The notes under the pieces: generated by a model
Databases searched by the model: none
What the model saw: the letters and a program-made list of their open reading frames with translations, nothing else
What the model was told of the DNA's origin: nothing
Shown: positions 3,599 through 31,126 of the stretch, piece after piece
Layout: each line of letters begins with the position of its first letter
Position numbering within the stretch: the stretch's first letter is position 1
Assembly (NCBI GenBank): GCA_029569495.1
Contig: JAKQTB010000147.1
Coordinates: forward strand, 1-34,262
Length of the DNA: 34,262 nucleotides
Direction of reading: 5' to 3'
Source: Pseudomonadota bacterium
Lineage (GTDB): Bacteria; Pseudomonadota; Gammaproteobacteria; Burkholderiales; Methylophilaceae
Made by a program: the position numbers and the translations under genes

Positions 3599-3681
3599 TC
3601 GAGAGAAAAACAATGCCCTGCGAGCCTTTATTTATAAGACTTTCAGAGCATCGCAAAAGGTTGGTGTTAAAACAGGGCATT
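3599..3681 (+). repeat. Dispersed palindromic intergenic repeat, copy A (rearranged)
   Basis: tcgagagaaaaaca-ATGCCCTGCGAGCCTTTATTTATAAGACTTTCAGAGCAT-cgcaaaaggttgg plus an additional cagggcatt half-site at 3673-3681. Shares arms and flanks with copies B-E. Confidence 0.85.
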
Positions 3682-9013: not shown

Positions 9014-11617
9014 ATGTCCAAACTGTTAATTGTTGAATCCCCTTCCAAGGCTAAAACGCTTAAAAAATATCTTGGAAGCGACTTTGAGGTTTTAGCTTCA
9101 TACGGACACGTGCGTGATTTGATTCCCAAAAATGGCGCTGTAGATACCGAACACGACTTCGCGATGAAGTACGATATTATCGAGCGCAATAGCAAACATG
9201 TGGACGCCATTGCCAAAGCCGTCAAAAGTGCAGACAGCATTTACCTCGCAACCGACCCGGACCGTGAAGGTGAGGCAATCTCTTGGCATATCGCGGAGAT
9301 ATTAAAGTCTAAAAATCTACTTAAAAATAAGCTCATGAAACGCGTTGTGTTTCATGAAATTACTAAAACAGCGGTTGAACACGCCATTGCGGAGCCGCGT
9401 GATATTTCAATGCCAATGGTCAATGCGCAACAAGCACGCCGTGCGCTCGATTACTTGGTTGGCTTTAATTTATCGCCATTGTTATGGAAAAAAATCCGCC
9501 GTGGTTTATCGGCTGGGCGCGTGCAAAGCCCGGCGCTGCGGCTCATTGTTGAGCGTGAGTTAGAAATTGAGGCTTTTAAGTCTCAAGAATATTGGTCTAT
9601 TCATTTAGATGCGCTCAAACACAGCCACGGCTTTAGCGCAAAACTTATTCAGCTCAACCATGAAAAGGTAGAGCAATTTACCGTTATCAACCACGACCAG
9701 CAAAATGATATTGTCGGTAAATTATTACTTGCAAGCGCTGGCAAAACCACTGTTTCAAGGGTAGAGAAAAAACAACGCAGCCGTAACCCTGCTGCACCTT
9801 TCACCACTTCAACCCTGCAACAAGAAGCGGTACGTAAGCTTGGTTTCACAACCTCGCGCGCCATGCGCATCGCCCAACAACTCTATGAAGGCATGGACGT
9901 TGGCAACGGCACAGTGGGTTTAATTACTTACATGCGTACAGACTCATTTAGCATTGCGGCTGAGGCAATTGCGCAAATTCGTGATTATGTGAAAAAGAAT
10001 TTCGATACTGAATATCTGCCAAAAACGGCCATTGCCTACAAAACAAAATCAAAAAGTGCGCAAGAAGCACATGAGGCGATTCGCCCGACCGATATCAACC
10101 GCACCCCTGCTAGCGTGCGCCAATACTTAACCGATGAGCAGTTCAAGTTATACGAAATGATTTGGAAACGGGCGCTTGCCTGCCAAATGTCACCTGCCAA
10201 GTTTGATGCGGTGAGTGTTGATTTAAGTGTTGGCAGTGATGCTAATTTATTCCGTGCTTCTGGCCAAACATTGGTATTTCCGGGCTTTATCGCGGTGTAT
10301 ATGGAAGGCACTGATGACGAGGAAGAAGAGGCCGAAGCCAAATTACCGCACCTTGAAACTGGCGAAGTACTGACCGTAGAAAAAATTTACGGGGAGCAAC
10401 ATTTTACTGAGCCACCACCACGCTATGGTGAAGCCAGCTTGGTTAAAATTTTAGAAGAATACGGCATTGGCCGCCCATCAACTTATGCCAGCATTATTAG
10501 CACACTGCAAGATCGTGAGTATGTGATACTCGATAAAAAACGCTTTAAGCCAACAGATGTTGGTCGGGTGGTGAATAAGTTCTTAACTGAGCATTTCACA
10601 AAATATGTGGATTACGACTTTACTGCTAATCTTGAAAATGAACTCGATGAGATTGCTGAAGGCGACCGCGAGTGGATACCGGTCATGGATGAATTCTGGC
10701 ATGGATTTAACCAGCAATTACTCAGCAAAGCCGATGTAGACCGCCCTGGCAACGAATTAATTGACGAGGCTTGCCCAAAATGTGGCAAACCGCTACAAAA
10801 ACAACTCAGCCGCTATGGCAGTTTTATTGGCTGTACGGGCTATAACGACACGCCTAAGTGTGACTACAAACGCAGTATCGGTGGCGAAGCAGCGGTAGGT
10901 GCTGACCCCATCATCATTGGCAGCGACGATGAAACTGGCAAAGAAATTATGCTCATGAACGGCCCATACGGCCCATATTTACAGCTTGGCGCAGTCATTG
11001 AGGGCGACAAAAAGAAACCGAAGCGCGTCAGTGTGCCTAAAGAGATTTCACTGGCTGACATGAGTTTAGAAACCGCAAAAATGGTGCTGTCACTCCCGCG
11101 CGATTTAGGCCAACACCCGGAAACTGGCAAAAAAATTGTGGCAAATATTGGTCGTTTTGGGCCATATGTGAATCATGATGGTAAATTTAAGTCGATTCCA
11201 AAAACTGAAAGCGTCTTTACGATCGACCTTGCAGGGGCTGTCACCCTGCTTGCGCAAGCACATAGTGGGCCAGCACCCATTGCCGATTTAGGGCCGCATC
11301 CGTCAGGCGAAGGCCGCATTGAAATCTATGCCGGACGCTATGGCCCCTATGTTCAGCATGCAAAAATTCGCGCTACTTTGCCAAAAAGTGTAGAACCAGA
11401 AGCGCTTACTTTAGAAGAAGCGATAGAACTGCTCAATGCTAAAGCACTCAAAGATGCGCCTGCTAAAAAAACAACGGCAAAGAAAGTAGTTGCTAAAAAA
11501 CCAGCCACCAAAAAAGAAGCCGTAAAAAAAGAGGCGACTAAAAAAGCCGTCACTAAAAAAACGGTCGCTAAGAAAGTAAGCAAAAAAACTGTCGCTAAAA
11601 AGCCGGCTAAAGAATAA
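9014..11617 (+). CDS. topA: DNA topoisomerase I with lysine/alanine-rich C-terminal tail
   Basis: LLIVESPSKAKTLKKYLG, ATDPDREGEAISWHI, LITYMRTDS, GRPSTYASII, zinc-finger CPKCGKPL; C-terminal KKTTAKKVVAKKPATKKE... tail. Confidence 0.98.
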   Translation: MSKLLIVESPSKAKTLKKYLGSDFEVLASYGHVRDLIPKNGAVDTEHDFAMKYDIIERNSKHVDAIAKAVKSADSIYLATDPDREGEAISWHIAEILKSKNLLKNKLMKRVVFHEITKTAVEHAIAEPRDISMPMVNAQQARRALDYLVGFNLSPLLWKKIRRGLSAGRVQSPALRLIVERELEIEAFKSQEYWSIHLDALKHSHGFSAKLIQLNHEKVEQFTVINHDQQNDIVGKLLLASAGKTTVSRVEKKQRSRNPAAPFTTSTLQQEAVRKLGFTTSRAMRIAQQLYEGMDVGNGTVGLITYMRTDSFSIAAEAIAQIRDYVKKNFDTEYLPKTAIAYKTKSKSAQEAHEAIRPTDINRTPASVRQYLTDEQFKLYEMIWKRALACQMSPAKFDAVSVDLSVGSDANLFRASGQTLVFPGFIAVYMEGTDDEEEEAEAKLPHLETGEVLTVEKIYGEQHFTEPPPRYGEASLVKILEEYGIGRPSTYASIISTLQDREYVILDKKRFKPTDVGRVVNKFLTEHFTKYVDYDFTANLENELDEIAEGDREWIPVMDEFWHGFNQQLLSKADVDRPGNELIDEACPKCGKPLQKQLSRYGSFIGCTGYNDTPKCDYKRSIGGEAAVGADPIIIGSDDETGKEIMLMNGPYGPYLQLGAVIEGDKKKPKRVSVPKEISLADMSLETAKMVLSLPRDLGQHPETGKKIVANIGRFGPYVNHDGKFKSIPKTESVFTIDLAGAVTLLAQAHSGPAPIADLGPHPSGEGRIEIYAGRYGPYVQHAKIRATLPKSVEPEALTLEEAIELLNAKALKDAPAKKTTAKKVVAKKPATKKEAVKKEATKKAVTKKTVAKKVSKKTVAKKPAKE

Positions 11618-11723: not shown

Positions 11724-11787
11724 CCGAGGAAAATTTAATGCCCTGAGAGCCTTTATTTATAAGGCTCACAGGGCATCGAAAAAGGTT
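11724..11787 (+). repeat. Dispersed palindromic intergenic repeat, copy B
   Basis: ccgaggaaaattta-ATGCCCTGAGAGCCTT-TATTTAT-AAGGCTCACAGGGCAT-cgaaaaaggttg; 16-bp arms with one mismatch. Confidence 0.92.
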
Positions 11788-11807
11788 GCAGTCTAATTTG
11801 TTGGTTT

Positions 11808-13542: not shown

Positions 13543-13657
13543 CAAACCTTTTTTCGATGCCCTGAAAGCCCTATAATTAGTAATGCTTCATGCTTGCATG
13601 ATTAGCAGCACTTATGCCTGTGGTAATAAAGGCGCTCAGGGCATTAAATTTTTCTCG
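13543..13657 (-). repeat. Dispersed palindromic intergenic repeat, copy C (inverted orientation, expanded loop)
   Basis: Reverse complement reads ccgagaaaaattta-ATGCCCTGAGCGCCTTTATTA-(about 50 nt containing TGCTAATCATGCAAGCATGAAGCA hairpin)-TAGGGCTTTCAGGGCAT-cgaaaaaaggtttg. Confidence 0.88.
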
Positions 13658-13673
13658 GTGAAAATTTAAGGTT

Positions 13674-23200: not shown

Positions 23201-24622
23201 ATGACTCAAAAACACACTTGCCTCATTGTCGATGATGAATCAGATATTCGCGAACTGCTCGTGATGACGCTTGAGCGCATGGATATTGACACCTATAGCG
23301 CCAACGGTCTAGAAGAAGCAAAAACTTTACTCGCGCAGCGCCCCTACTCGCTCTGCCTAACCGATATGCAAATGGGCGATGGCACTGGGCTTGAACTGGT
23401 GCAATATATCAATGAGTTTCATGCTGGCCTGCCCGTCGCGGTGATTACCGCACATGCAAGTGCCGACAACGCCGTGGCCGCGCTCAAGGCTGGGGCTTTT
23501 GATTATTTAAGTAAGCCGCTGTCCCTCAAGCAACTGCGCCCTGTCATTGAATTTGCCCTCAAACTCACCCCGCAGACCAGCCACGCGCCTTCAGACACCT
23601 TAGAGATGATTGGCGATTCTGAGCCGATGACGCATGTACGCCACATGATTGCGAAACTTTCACGCAGTCAGGCGCCCGTGTACATTAGTGGAGAATCAGG
23701 TAGCGGCAAAGAGCTTGCGGCCAAACTTATTCATAAAAACAGCGCGCGGGCTGAAGGCGCTTTTATTGCGGTGAACTGTGGGGCGATTCCTGAAAATTTA
23801 ATGGAAAGTGAATTTTTTGGCTACAAAAAAGGCGCATTCACTGGGGCAAACCAAGACAAAGAAGGCATGTTTCAGGCCGCCAATGGCGGCACATTGTTTT
23901 TAGATGAAGTGGCCGATTTACCATTGCCCATGCAAGTGAAATTATTACGCGCCATTCAGGAAAAGAAGGTCCGCATGGTGGGCGGTACCGCTGAAGAAGC
24001 GGTGGATGTGCGCATTATCAGTGCCACACACAAAAACTTGGTTGAAATGATGGAAGCTGGCCAATTCAGGCAAGATTTATACTACCGCCTGAATGTGATT
24101 CAGCTCAAAATGCCCGCGCTGCGTGATCGGCCCGTGGATATTCCGCTATTGGCGAACTTATTACTTGAAAAACTTTGCAAAAACCTAGGTGTTGATGCAC
24201 CAAAAATTGAGCAATCCACGCAAGATTACATTTCAAATCTGGCTTTTCCAGGCAATGTGCGTGAGTTAGAAAACATGCTTGAACGCGCGCTCGCCATGTG
24301 TGACGGACAAACGATTACCATTGATGACTTGATGCATCATGAAGAAATTCGTATTGAGCGCAGAAAAGTACCGCGTGATGAATTTCATAAACTGCCTTCG
24401 ACCAACCCAAATATTTCGCCTGATGTGAAACTGCCGGAGTATCTTGAAGAAGTTGAAAAACGCGCTATTTTGCAGGCGCTTGAAAAAACCAATCAAAACA
24501 AAACGGCTGCCGCCAAATTATTAGGCGTGAGCTTTCGAACCTTGCGTTATCGTTTGGTAAAACTTGGGCTTTCAAAAGAGGCCGAAACCGCGTTAGAAGA
24601 TGAGTTAGAAGCTGAAGAATAG
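23201..24622 (+). CDS. pilR: Sigma-54-dependent response regulator PilR
   Basis: Receiver domain, GESGSGKELAAKLIH, GAFTGA, C-terminal Fis HTH (NKTAAAKLLGVSFRTLRYRL). Confidence 0.92.
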   Translation: MTQKHTCLIVDDESDIRELLVMTLERMDIDTYSANGLEEAKTLLAQRPYSLCLTDMQMGDGTGLELVQYINEFHAGLPVAVITAHASADNAVAALKAGAFDYLSKPLSLKQLRPVIEFALKLTPQTSHAPSDTLEMIGDSEPMTHVRHMIAKLSRSQAPVYISGESGSGKELAAKLIHKNSARAEGAFIAVNCGAIPENLMESEFFGYKKGAFTGANQDKEGMFQAANGGTLFLDEVADLPLPMQVKLLRAIQEKKVRMVGGTAEEAVDVRIISATHKNLVEMMEAGQFRQDLYYRLNVIQLKMPALRDRPVDIPLLANLLLEKLCKNLGVDAPKIEQSTQDYISNLAFPGNVRELENMLERALAMCDGQTITIDDLMHHEEIRIERRKVPRDEFHKLPSTNPNISPDVKLPEYLEEVEKRAILQALEKTNQNKTAAAKLLGVSFRTLRYRLVKLGLSKEAETALEDELEAEE

Positions 24623-24692
24623 GCTGGCGCACGCCGCGCTTTTTTTCAAAAAATTCCTTCTTAAAAATGCTTATATTTTAAGCAAAATTTCC

Positions 24693-24757
24693 TCGAGAAA
24701 AAATTTATGCTCTGCGAGCCTTATAAATAAAGGCTCGCAGAGCATCGAAAAAGGTTG
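24693..24757 (+). repeat. Dispersed palindromic intergenic repeat, copy D (perfect palindrome)
   Basis: tcgagaaaaaattt-ATGCTCTGCGAGCCTT-ATAAATA-AAGGCTCGCAGAGCAT-cgaaaaaggttg; 16/16 bp arms. Confidence 0.93.
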
Positions 24758-24801
24758 TGCGATAAATTGCTTAAATTTTAAATGCTTTATCTCGCTGAAA
24801 A

Positions 24802-25806
24802 CTACAGTAAAACAATCGCTAAATAAGTCACATAAAGCAAGCCATTGAAGCCGATGTGCCAAACACGCAAACCACCTTCACGCGTTGCCATCACCCGCAG
24901 CCAAATGGCGGCAATCATGGTAATAATTACCCCGGCCAACACTTCTTTGCGCGGCTCCCAAGGCGTGAGCATAATGCCGATGGCTGGCAATAATGTACCC
25001 TGAAACACCATTGCGCCAGTAATGTTGCCAAACGCCAGTGTGTCTTTACCTTTGCGTATCCATAAAATGCTATTCACTTTTTCGGGCAATTCTGTAGCGA
25101 TTGGAATAATCAATAATGAAAGTAGCAAAGCAGAAATGCCAAGAATAGAAGCCGCCTCTTCTACGCCATGAATAAAGCCTTTGGCGCCCGCAATCAACAG
25201 CGCTAAACCCAATACCAGTTGCACAATAATGACCACCATATTATTGGGCAGCCCTAATTTACATAAAAACATATCGCTATCGGCTTCGGTGGCGTGGCCG
25301 TCTTCAACCAAATCTTTGGATGCGCGCAGCGTGAGCATGACATACACAAAATAAATCATGACCATGCCAAAACCCAGCCCATAGCGCACCACAATGTGCT
25401 GATGCGGCACAAACATCGCCAAGGTTGCAAAGGCAAAAGCGGCAATAAAGAAATTTAAATCGCGTAGCAAGCCCGTTTTTTCAGGCCGAAGATGACCGAT
25501 TGATGTGCGTCGCTTCCAAACAGAAAATGCCATCAAGAAAATAGACAATGTCGCTAACATCAATGGCGCCCCCAAAATTGCGCCCACGCCAATTTCTTCG
25601 TTAACCGCAACGCTGGATGTACCGGCCAATAACGCCAATAGCGGCACCATGGTTTCTGGCAGTGCGGTGCCCACTGCGGCAAACAGTGAGCCCGTTACCC
25701 CTTCTGAAATACCTAATTTTTCACCCAAATGCTCGAGCGCATTGGTAAACACTTCTGCTGCGATTAGAATCACAATGAGCATTAAAAATAATGTCGCGAA
25801 AACCAT
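24802..25806 (-). CDS. CaCA-family sodium/calcium exchanger-like membrane protein
   Basis: SLFAAVGTALPETMVPLLALLAG and LLIIPIATELPEKVNSILW alpha-repeat signatures. Confidence 0.85.
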   Translation of the reverse strand: MVFATLFLMLIVILIAAEVFTNALEHLGEKLGISEGVTGSLFAAVGTALPETMVPLLALLAGTSSVAVNEEIGVGAILGAPLMLATLSIFLMAFSVWKRRTSIGHLRPEKTGLLRDLNFFIAAFAFATLAMFVPHQHIVVRYGLGFGMVMIYFVYVMLTLRASKDLVEDGHATEADSDMFLCKLGLPNNMVVIIVQLVLGLALLIAGAKGFIHGVEEAASILGISALLLSLLIIPIATELPEKVNSILWIRKGKDTLAFGNITGAMVFQGTLLPAIGIMLTPWEPRKEVLAGVIITMIAAIWLRVMATREGGLRVWHIGFNGLLYVTYLAIVLL

Positions 25807-30659: not shown

Positions 30660-30710
30660 TCACCGCAATTTTCACGCTATTAAAAACATTAATACAAAGG
30701 CAAAAACTCC

Positions 30711-30774
30711 CGAGAAAAAATTACTGCCCTGCGAGCCTTTGTTTATAAGGCTCACAGGGCATCGAAAAAGGTTG
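30711..30774 (+). repeat. Dispersed palindromic intergenic repeat, copy E
   Basis: cgagaaaaaatta-CTGCCCTGCGAGCCTT-TGTTTAT-AAGGCTCACAGGGCAT-cgaaaaaggttg. Confidence 0.92.
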
Positions 30775-30907: not shown

Positions 30908-31052
30908 AGGAAGCACGGAATAAGTGAGCGAGCGGGATGAAGTGCGAGGCGTACGGCGCGCAGAAACCGAGATAGTACAAGTTGTACAGCGAGGCTTCGA
31001 GCACCGCGCAACGAAGCAATTCGCCCGCGTAGCCGCTTATTCCGTGTTTCCT
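30908..31052. mobile_element. MITE-like element: 145 bp near-symmetric imperfect palindrome with terminal inverted repeats
   Basis: Ends AGGAAGCACGGAATAAG / CTTATTCCGTGTTTCCT; central symmetric GTACAAGTTGTAC (30975-30987) at the exact midpoint; no real ORF. Confidence 0.75.
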
Positions 31053-31126
31053 AAATTTCACGGATGACCACATCCTCCTTATCAATAATTAAAAATAACT
31101 GGCCTAGGTTATCTAAGGGATTAAAC

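Follow-up and report, generated by a model that had tools for sequence, protein, structure and literature searches.

A high-copy palindromic element with phased A/T flanks in a Methylophilaceae lineage: a putative DNA-topology site

Architecture of the element and its copies in the window

The window, which is the whole 34,262-nucleotide stretch of DNA that was analysed, corresponds to one contig (C39) of a 2.25-Mb draft genome, 94% complete, from a bacterium of the family Methylophilaceae (the host genome, G000). Copies A to E of a dispersed palindromic element lie on this contig, at the positions listed below together with the parts of copy D.

3599..3663, plus strand: copy A, with a decayed stem
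11724..11788, plus strand: copy B, in a gap between convergent genes (palindrome 11738-11776)
13545..13658, minus strand: copy C, its loop lengthened by about 49 bp (normal loop in the orthologue from genome G035)
24586..24692, no strand: left flank of copy D, class of phased A/T tracts (period about 11.4 bp, symmetric about 24726), defined on the aggregate of 177-180 copies and not on D alone
24693..24757, plus strand: copy D, 65-nt core element consisting of (T)CGAG, an A/T tract, a 39-nt palindrome and a CATCGAAAAAGGTTG tail, from the ungapped alignment of 183-232 copies
24707..24722, plus strand: left palindrome arm of copy D, with the covarying base at 24711 (column 18)
24723..24729, plus strand: 7-nt loop of copy D, ATAAATA, inverted relative to the TATTTAT of most copies
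24730..24745, plus strand: right palindrome arm of copy D, with the covarying partner at 24741 (column 48)
24758..24866, no strand: right flank of copy D, class of phased A/T tracts, likewise defined on the aggregate of 177-180 copies and not on D alone
30710..30774, plus strand: copy E, in a tandem gene gap, 51 bp after the stop codon that precedes it (palindrome 30724-30762)

The 39-bp palindrome contains two fixed half-sites, CTG-NN-AGCCTT and AAGGCT-NN-CAG, and alignment columns 1-4, 17, 19-21, 24-29, 37-42, 45-47, 49-51 and 56-63 are nearly invariant. In copy D the arms pair at all 16 positions, and the palindrome has a single-strand DNA fold of -20.2 kcal/mol (z = -7.1). A first-pass annotation of this DNA had described the perfect pairing of copy D, the arm sequences GCCCTG/CAGGGC of copies B and E and a varying ninth pair (C:G in D, A.A in B and C.A in E), a description that was found to be correct. 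Between CGAG and the stem, the A/T tract (columns 5-13) takes one of a small number of discrete forms, among them AAAAATTTT, GATTTTTTT and AGAAAAACA, which are linked as blocks. The extra loop stretch of copy C has a small palindrome of its own (TCATGCAAGCATGA) and is carried by two copies, the one at 13545-13658 in the window and another on contig C127 of the host genome at approximately 1395-1508, with a third match to the stretch on contig C96 at about 3660. The orthologue of the long-loop copy in G035 (C201:719) has a loop of the usual 7 nt.

Distribution among genomes

Counted by the pattern of its tail, the element is present in approximately 214-236 copies in the host genome (reversed control, 1-7) and in about 148 copies in a second species of the genus (MAG USOA134_metabat.83; G035). 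A third genome, USDV_maxbin.015 (G010), has about 6 copies, possibly on contaminating contigs; these and the copies in a Bacteroidota-labelled bin appear to be mis-binned sequences from a third member of the element's lineage. The element was above background in none of the other 184 of the 187 genomes of the family. In addition, two closed relatives had no such repeat family in the 200 kb sampled in each, and at the gcvH locus of relatives, where directly readable, the gaps were mostly short and without the element. Since close relatives do not carry it, the element is not essential to the genus. An Rfam covariance-model search of the window gave no match above the gathering score, and no published description for this genus was found in open-access papers. 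Viral carriage has been rejected, the single 20-mer match lying within an open frame without the hairpin and being due to chance. As to the assemblies, the copies of the third genome (C9, C33, C103, C131 and C161; L081-L085) and of the Bacteroidota-labelled bin (L205) are mostly on short contigs, and contigs of the host draft often end at a copy of the element (C9:3, C86:22, C116:24, C127:22, C180:32 and C232:3).

Placement relative to genes and resemblance to REP sequences

The element lies downstream of genes, with a median of 48-53 bp between it and the closer stop codon. Copies were found in 63 of 102 convergent, 87 of 660 tandem and 8 of 106 divergent gaps, figures that are informative only as a comparison between classes, given that the gaps were sampled around copies and were classed from gene calls based on a simple codon-usage heuristic. 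Within this sampled set, copies occupy most convergent gaps and avoid divergent ones. Orientation relative to the gene is the same in 38 cases and opposite in 49, a bias that is not significant. The copies are also more evenly spaced than simulations on gene gaps, with a coefficient of variation of 0.54 compared to 0.76±0.08 (0 of 500 simulations being as even) and 14 spacings below 3 kb where 30.7 are expected, an evenness that could be inflated if short contigs dropped out of the draft. The 13 spacings available in G035, where stretches were short, did not show it.

In being dispersed, intergenic, palindromic and close to gene 3' ends, the element resembles the BIME-2/REP sequences of enterobacteria, and as a family of many intergenic palindromes avoiding divergent gaps it is a REP in the loose sense. 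It differs from REPs in having no GTAG or CGTC at the foot of the stem, with a 5' motif, CGAG, about 10 nt away from it, and from BIME-2/REP in the lack of clustering into BIMEs, the long perfect palindrome, the long symmetric phased flanks and the even spacing. An ordinary REP-like or MITE parasite would have spread in an ancestor and survived at gene ends since other insertions are harmful, its arm and loop changes being template-switch noise. Such a parasite would share with REPs the traits above and the absence from relatives (PMC3733652), and CGTC-type REPs likewise occur without a transposase. Nonetheless, a search for the Y1 (RAYT) transposase (PF01797) gave no match in the 94% complete host genome, with matches in control genomes, which rules out a RAYT-driven REP. 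Orthologous sites were found filled in both G000 and G035, with flanks about 14% divergent, and no unshared copy was found among those checked in the two species. Neither the even spacing nor the selected A/T phase described below is expected of a parasite, an explanation considered unlikely.

Covariation in the stem

The alignment comprises 232 full-length copies from three genomes, without gaps, a set of 183 copies being used for some tests, and 50 orthologous pairs were compared between G000 and G035. Full 16/16 pairing occurs in 42 of 183 aligned copies, compared to 10.5 expected under random reassignment of the right arms (maximum of 19 in 200 shuffles). The column pair 18/48, which corresponds to 24711:24741 in the window, alternates between C:G and T:A. 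On a tree built without the columns of that pair, 32 co-occurring changes have been detected against 14±3 expected, and the 50 orthologous pairs show 7 double changes (C:G to T:A or the reverse), together with 6 changes confined to the left side and 6 to the right (p = 0.023). With an R-scape-like null and a tree including the tested columns, the same pair is top-ranked but not significant (E of about 2). The result hinges on the handling of ancestry, and more trust is placed in the orthologous pairs and in the tree that omits the tested columns. An excess of joint changes was absent on the tree for pairs 14/52, 22/44 and 23/43. About half of the copies have a mismatch at 22/44, which is the ninth pair, and about half at 23/43; with two of 16 stem pairs free in this manner, pairing is not maintained over the entire stem. 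The first-pass annotation had taken the two-sided arm change as suggesting conserved pairing that a covariation test should reveal; this stands for the pair 24711:24741, on the column-free tree and in the orthologues, and fails for the whole stem and under the R-scape-like null.

Mismatches in the stem are divided between G.T (100) and A.C (108) and show no dependence on the direction of the neighbouring gene, which indicates that there is no overall RNA-strand signature. An RNA-level device, whether a terminator or a 3' mRNA stabiliser with selected hairpin pairing, would fit the location of copies after stop codons, the terminator-like character of copies D and E (on the minus strand only, with a tract that starts AAA) and the covariation at 18/48, where unpaired states are C.A in 34 copies and T.G in 12, an asymmetry unlike the overall mismatch balance and equivalent to G.U on the minus strand. 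However, in addition to the balanced mismatches, gene orientation is not significantly biased, canonical terminators already precede copies B and D, pairs 22-23/43-44 are not kept paired, and symmetric phased flanks extending to 100 bp are unnecessary for an RNA function. A device of this kind is therefore improbable, and of the selected RNA hairpin or cruciform suggested in the first reading what remains is one compensating pair; the object under selection is most simply DNA.

Loop inversion and template switching

The loop of copy D is inverted relative to the TATTTAT of copies A and B, and the flip previously proposed on this basis is borne out, as the core flips in place, 16 of the 50 orthologous pairs having loops that face opposite ways. 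The loop is equally different between orthologues and between random copies, which indicates that flips are saturated. With the exception of the loop, each variable column of the stem and flanks shows orthologous copies to be more alike than random ones. A process in which copies replace one another's entire palindrome is rejected, since the likeness of orthologues persists outside the loop, and gene conversion in this form, an alternative that had been offered for the two-sided change, is contradicted. When copies are compared, the inner-arm state GA, which is asymmetric, switches side with the loop (13 left and 34 right with the normal loop, 10 and 3 with the inverted one; p = 0.003), and the outer pair does not. 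Within orthologous pairs the same tendency of the inner arms falls short of significance (p = 0.12).

Template switching at inverted repeats is known to cause one-step compensatory changes and spacer inversion (PMC8794818, PMC8604942), and this mechanism suffices for the loop flips. The element resembles this quasipalindrome mutation in that its loop inverts in place and its compensatory changes occur in one step, and departs from the precedent in that its changes are parallel at dozens of orthologous copies and that homogenisation spares columns 22-23/43-44. The rapid inversion of the loop and the paired substitutions in the arms are best read as the usual template-switch mutations of inverted repeats, combined with selection that favours either similar half-sites or pairing at a single position. 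As a matter of caution, arm changes on both sides, when found in repeats, are not by themselves a sign of RNA structure.

Phased A/T flanks

The A/T content around the copies is phase-locked to the palindrome centre and mirror-symmetric, with a period of 11.4 bp that is detectable beyond ±100 bp. The phase-locking power is 0.64/0.77, compared to null maxima of 0.02/0.04, and the 11-bp periodicity of the flanks greatly exceeds that of other gene 3' gaps in the host genome (p = 5e-47). A/T peaks are found on both sides at about 24, 39-40, 50-51, 61-61.5, 73, 85 and 96 bp from the centre, with inner peaks at 94-98% A/T and troughs down to about 40%. The flank profiles of G000 and G035 have a correlation of 0.96 and equal amplitude, the near flanks having diverged by 17-23% between the two species. 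Between these species, the ratio of W->S to W->W changes is 75:94 at the A/T peaks, 85:37 at the troughs (p = 3e-5) and 431:160 far away (p = 1e-11), which amounts to a roughly three-fold suppression of W->S changes, relative to W->W, at the peaks. Such a suppression at peaks, absent at troughs and far away, indicates that the A/T phase is under selection and is not a mere insertion fossil. A symmetric phased A/T pattern of about 200 bp is kept by selection, and this constitutes the strongest selection signal, located outside the stem in tracts absent from the first-pass annotation.

Insertion sites chosen on wrapped DNA also yield symmetric periodic flanks. That the flanks are a fossil of target choice, left by insertion into pre-bent or protein-wrapped DNA and without present function, would fit this symmetric periodicity and an element length near six helical turns, but is highly improbable given the suppressed W->S changes in flanks so diverged and the same A/T amplitude retained in both genomes. 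Flank-to-flank complementarity, as left by insertion into the arms of an old terminator, did not go beyond shuffles, and a search of the flanks for phase-preserving indels of about 11 bp gave mostly 1-4-bp indels and did not reveal a clear pattern.

A putative DNA-topology site

The symmetry, the phased bending at more than 10.5 bp, the placement at 3' ends and in convergent gaps and the even spacing together point to a role in DNA topology. From its sequence, the element is best read as a new REP/BIME-2-like, lineage-specific DNA-topology site; that it is a high-copy DNA-level site of this lineage, putatively a wrapped or curvature-pinned supercoil site, is given a probability of roughly one half. 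Each copy would be a site of bending or wrapping with two-fold symmetry and would pin a supercoil, as a plectoneme tip, or a wrapping enzyme, at a location where transcription-driven positive supercoils accumulate. Plectonemes are pinned by intrinsic curvature, and the phased A/T tracts of the element would be expected to fix a supercoil tip in like manner (PMC6301789). Unlike the curvature-pinned plectonemes described upstream of promoters, the element is downstream of genes and centred on a palindrome.

As to the reader of the site, DNA gyrase is the best single candidate by analogy, though a somewhat doubtful one. In Escherichia coli, the gyrase motif is symmetric over 130 bp, with a 36-bp centre and flanks phased at 10.75 bp; the enzyme is drawn downstream of transcription units, and BIME-2 palindromes are strong sites bound independently of transcription, with cleavage in the loops or mismatched stem parts of BIME-2/REP (PMC6379681). 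The element shares with strong gyrase sites (the Mu SGS and the E. coli motif) its two-fold symmetry, a core of about 36-39 bp and helically phased A/T flanks with a period above 10.5 bp, and it differs from them in its period of 11.4 instead of 10.75 bp, its fixed sequence core and its hundreds of near-identical copies; its pattern also exceeds the 130 bp of gyrase. The host GyrA has a full set of six C-terminal blades. At the phage Mu gyrase site, where the cut is annotated, A/T peaks occur at about 33-36, 44-47 and 54-58 bp from the centre, compared to 39, 50 and 62 bp in the element, and the arms are thus not in the same phase, with an offset of approximately 3.5-5 bp. When scanned with the element profile, the Mu site ranked 5th of 3001 with a 110-bp profile and 11th-34th with profiles of 66-75 bp, which is suggestive only.

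It is tentatively proposed that the approximately 230 putative sequence-encoded supercoil anchors form a genome-wide grid, with one every 5-6 kb at the ends of transcription units, kept by selection, which would constitute a new class of chromosome-organising element. If true, DNA sequence alone would mark points for holding or relaxing supercoils, evenly spaced along a bacterial chromosome, and a recently arisen family that can be compared between species would make the role of REP/BIME palindromes at gene ends directly testable.

Apart from this family, the window carries a second, much rarer repeat, which is GC-rich, about 145 bp long (30909-31053) and bounded by the inverted sequences GGAAGCACGGAATAAG and CTTATTCCGTGTTTCC; one related end lies at 10241-10260, and contigs C116 and C46 of the host genome carry core-like matches.
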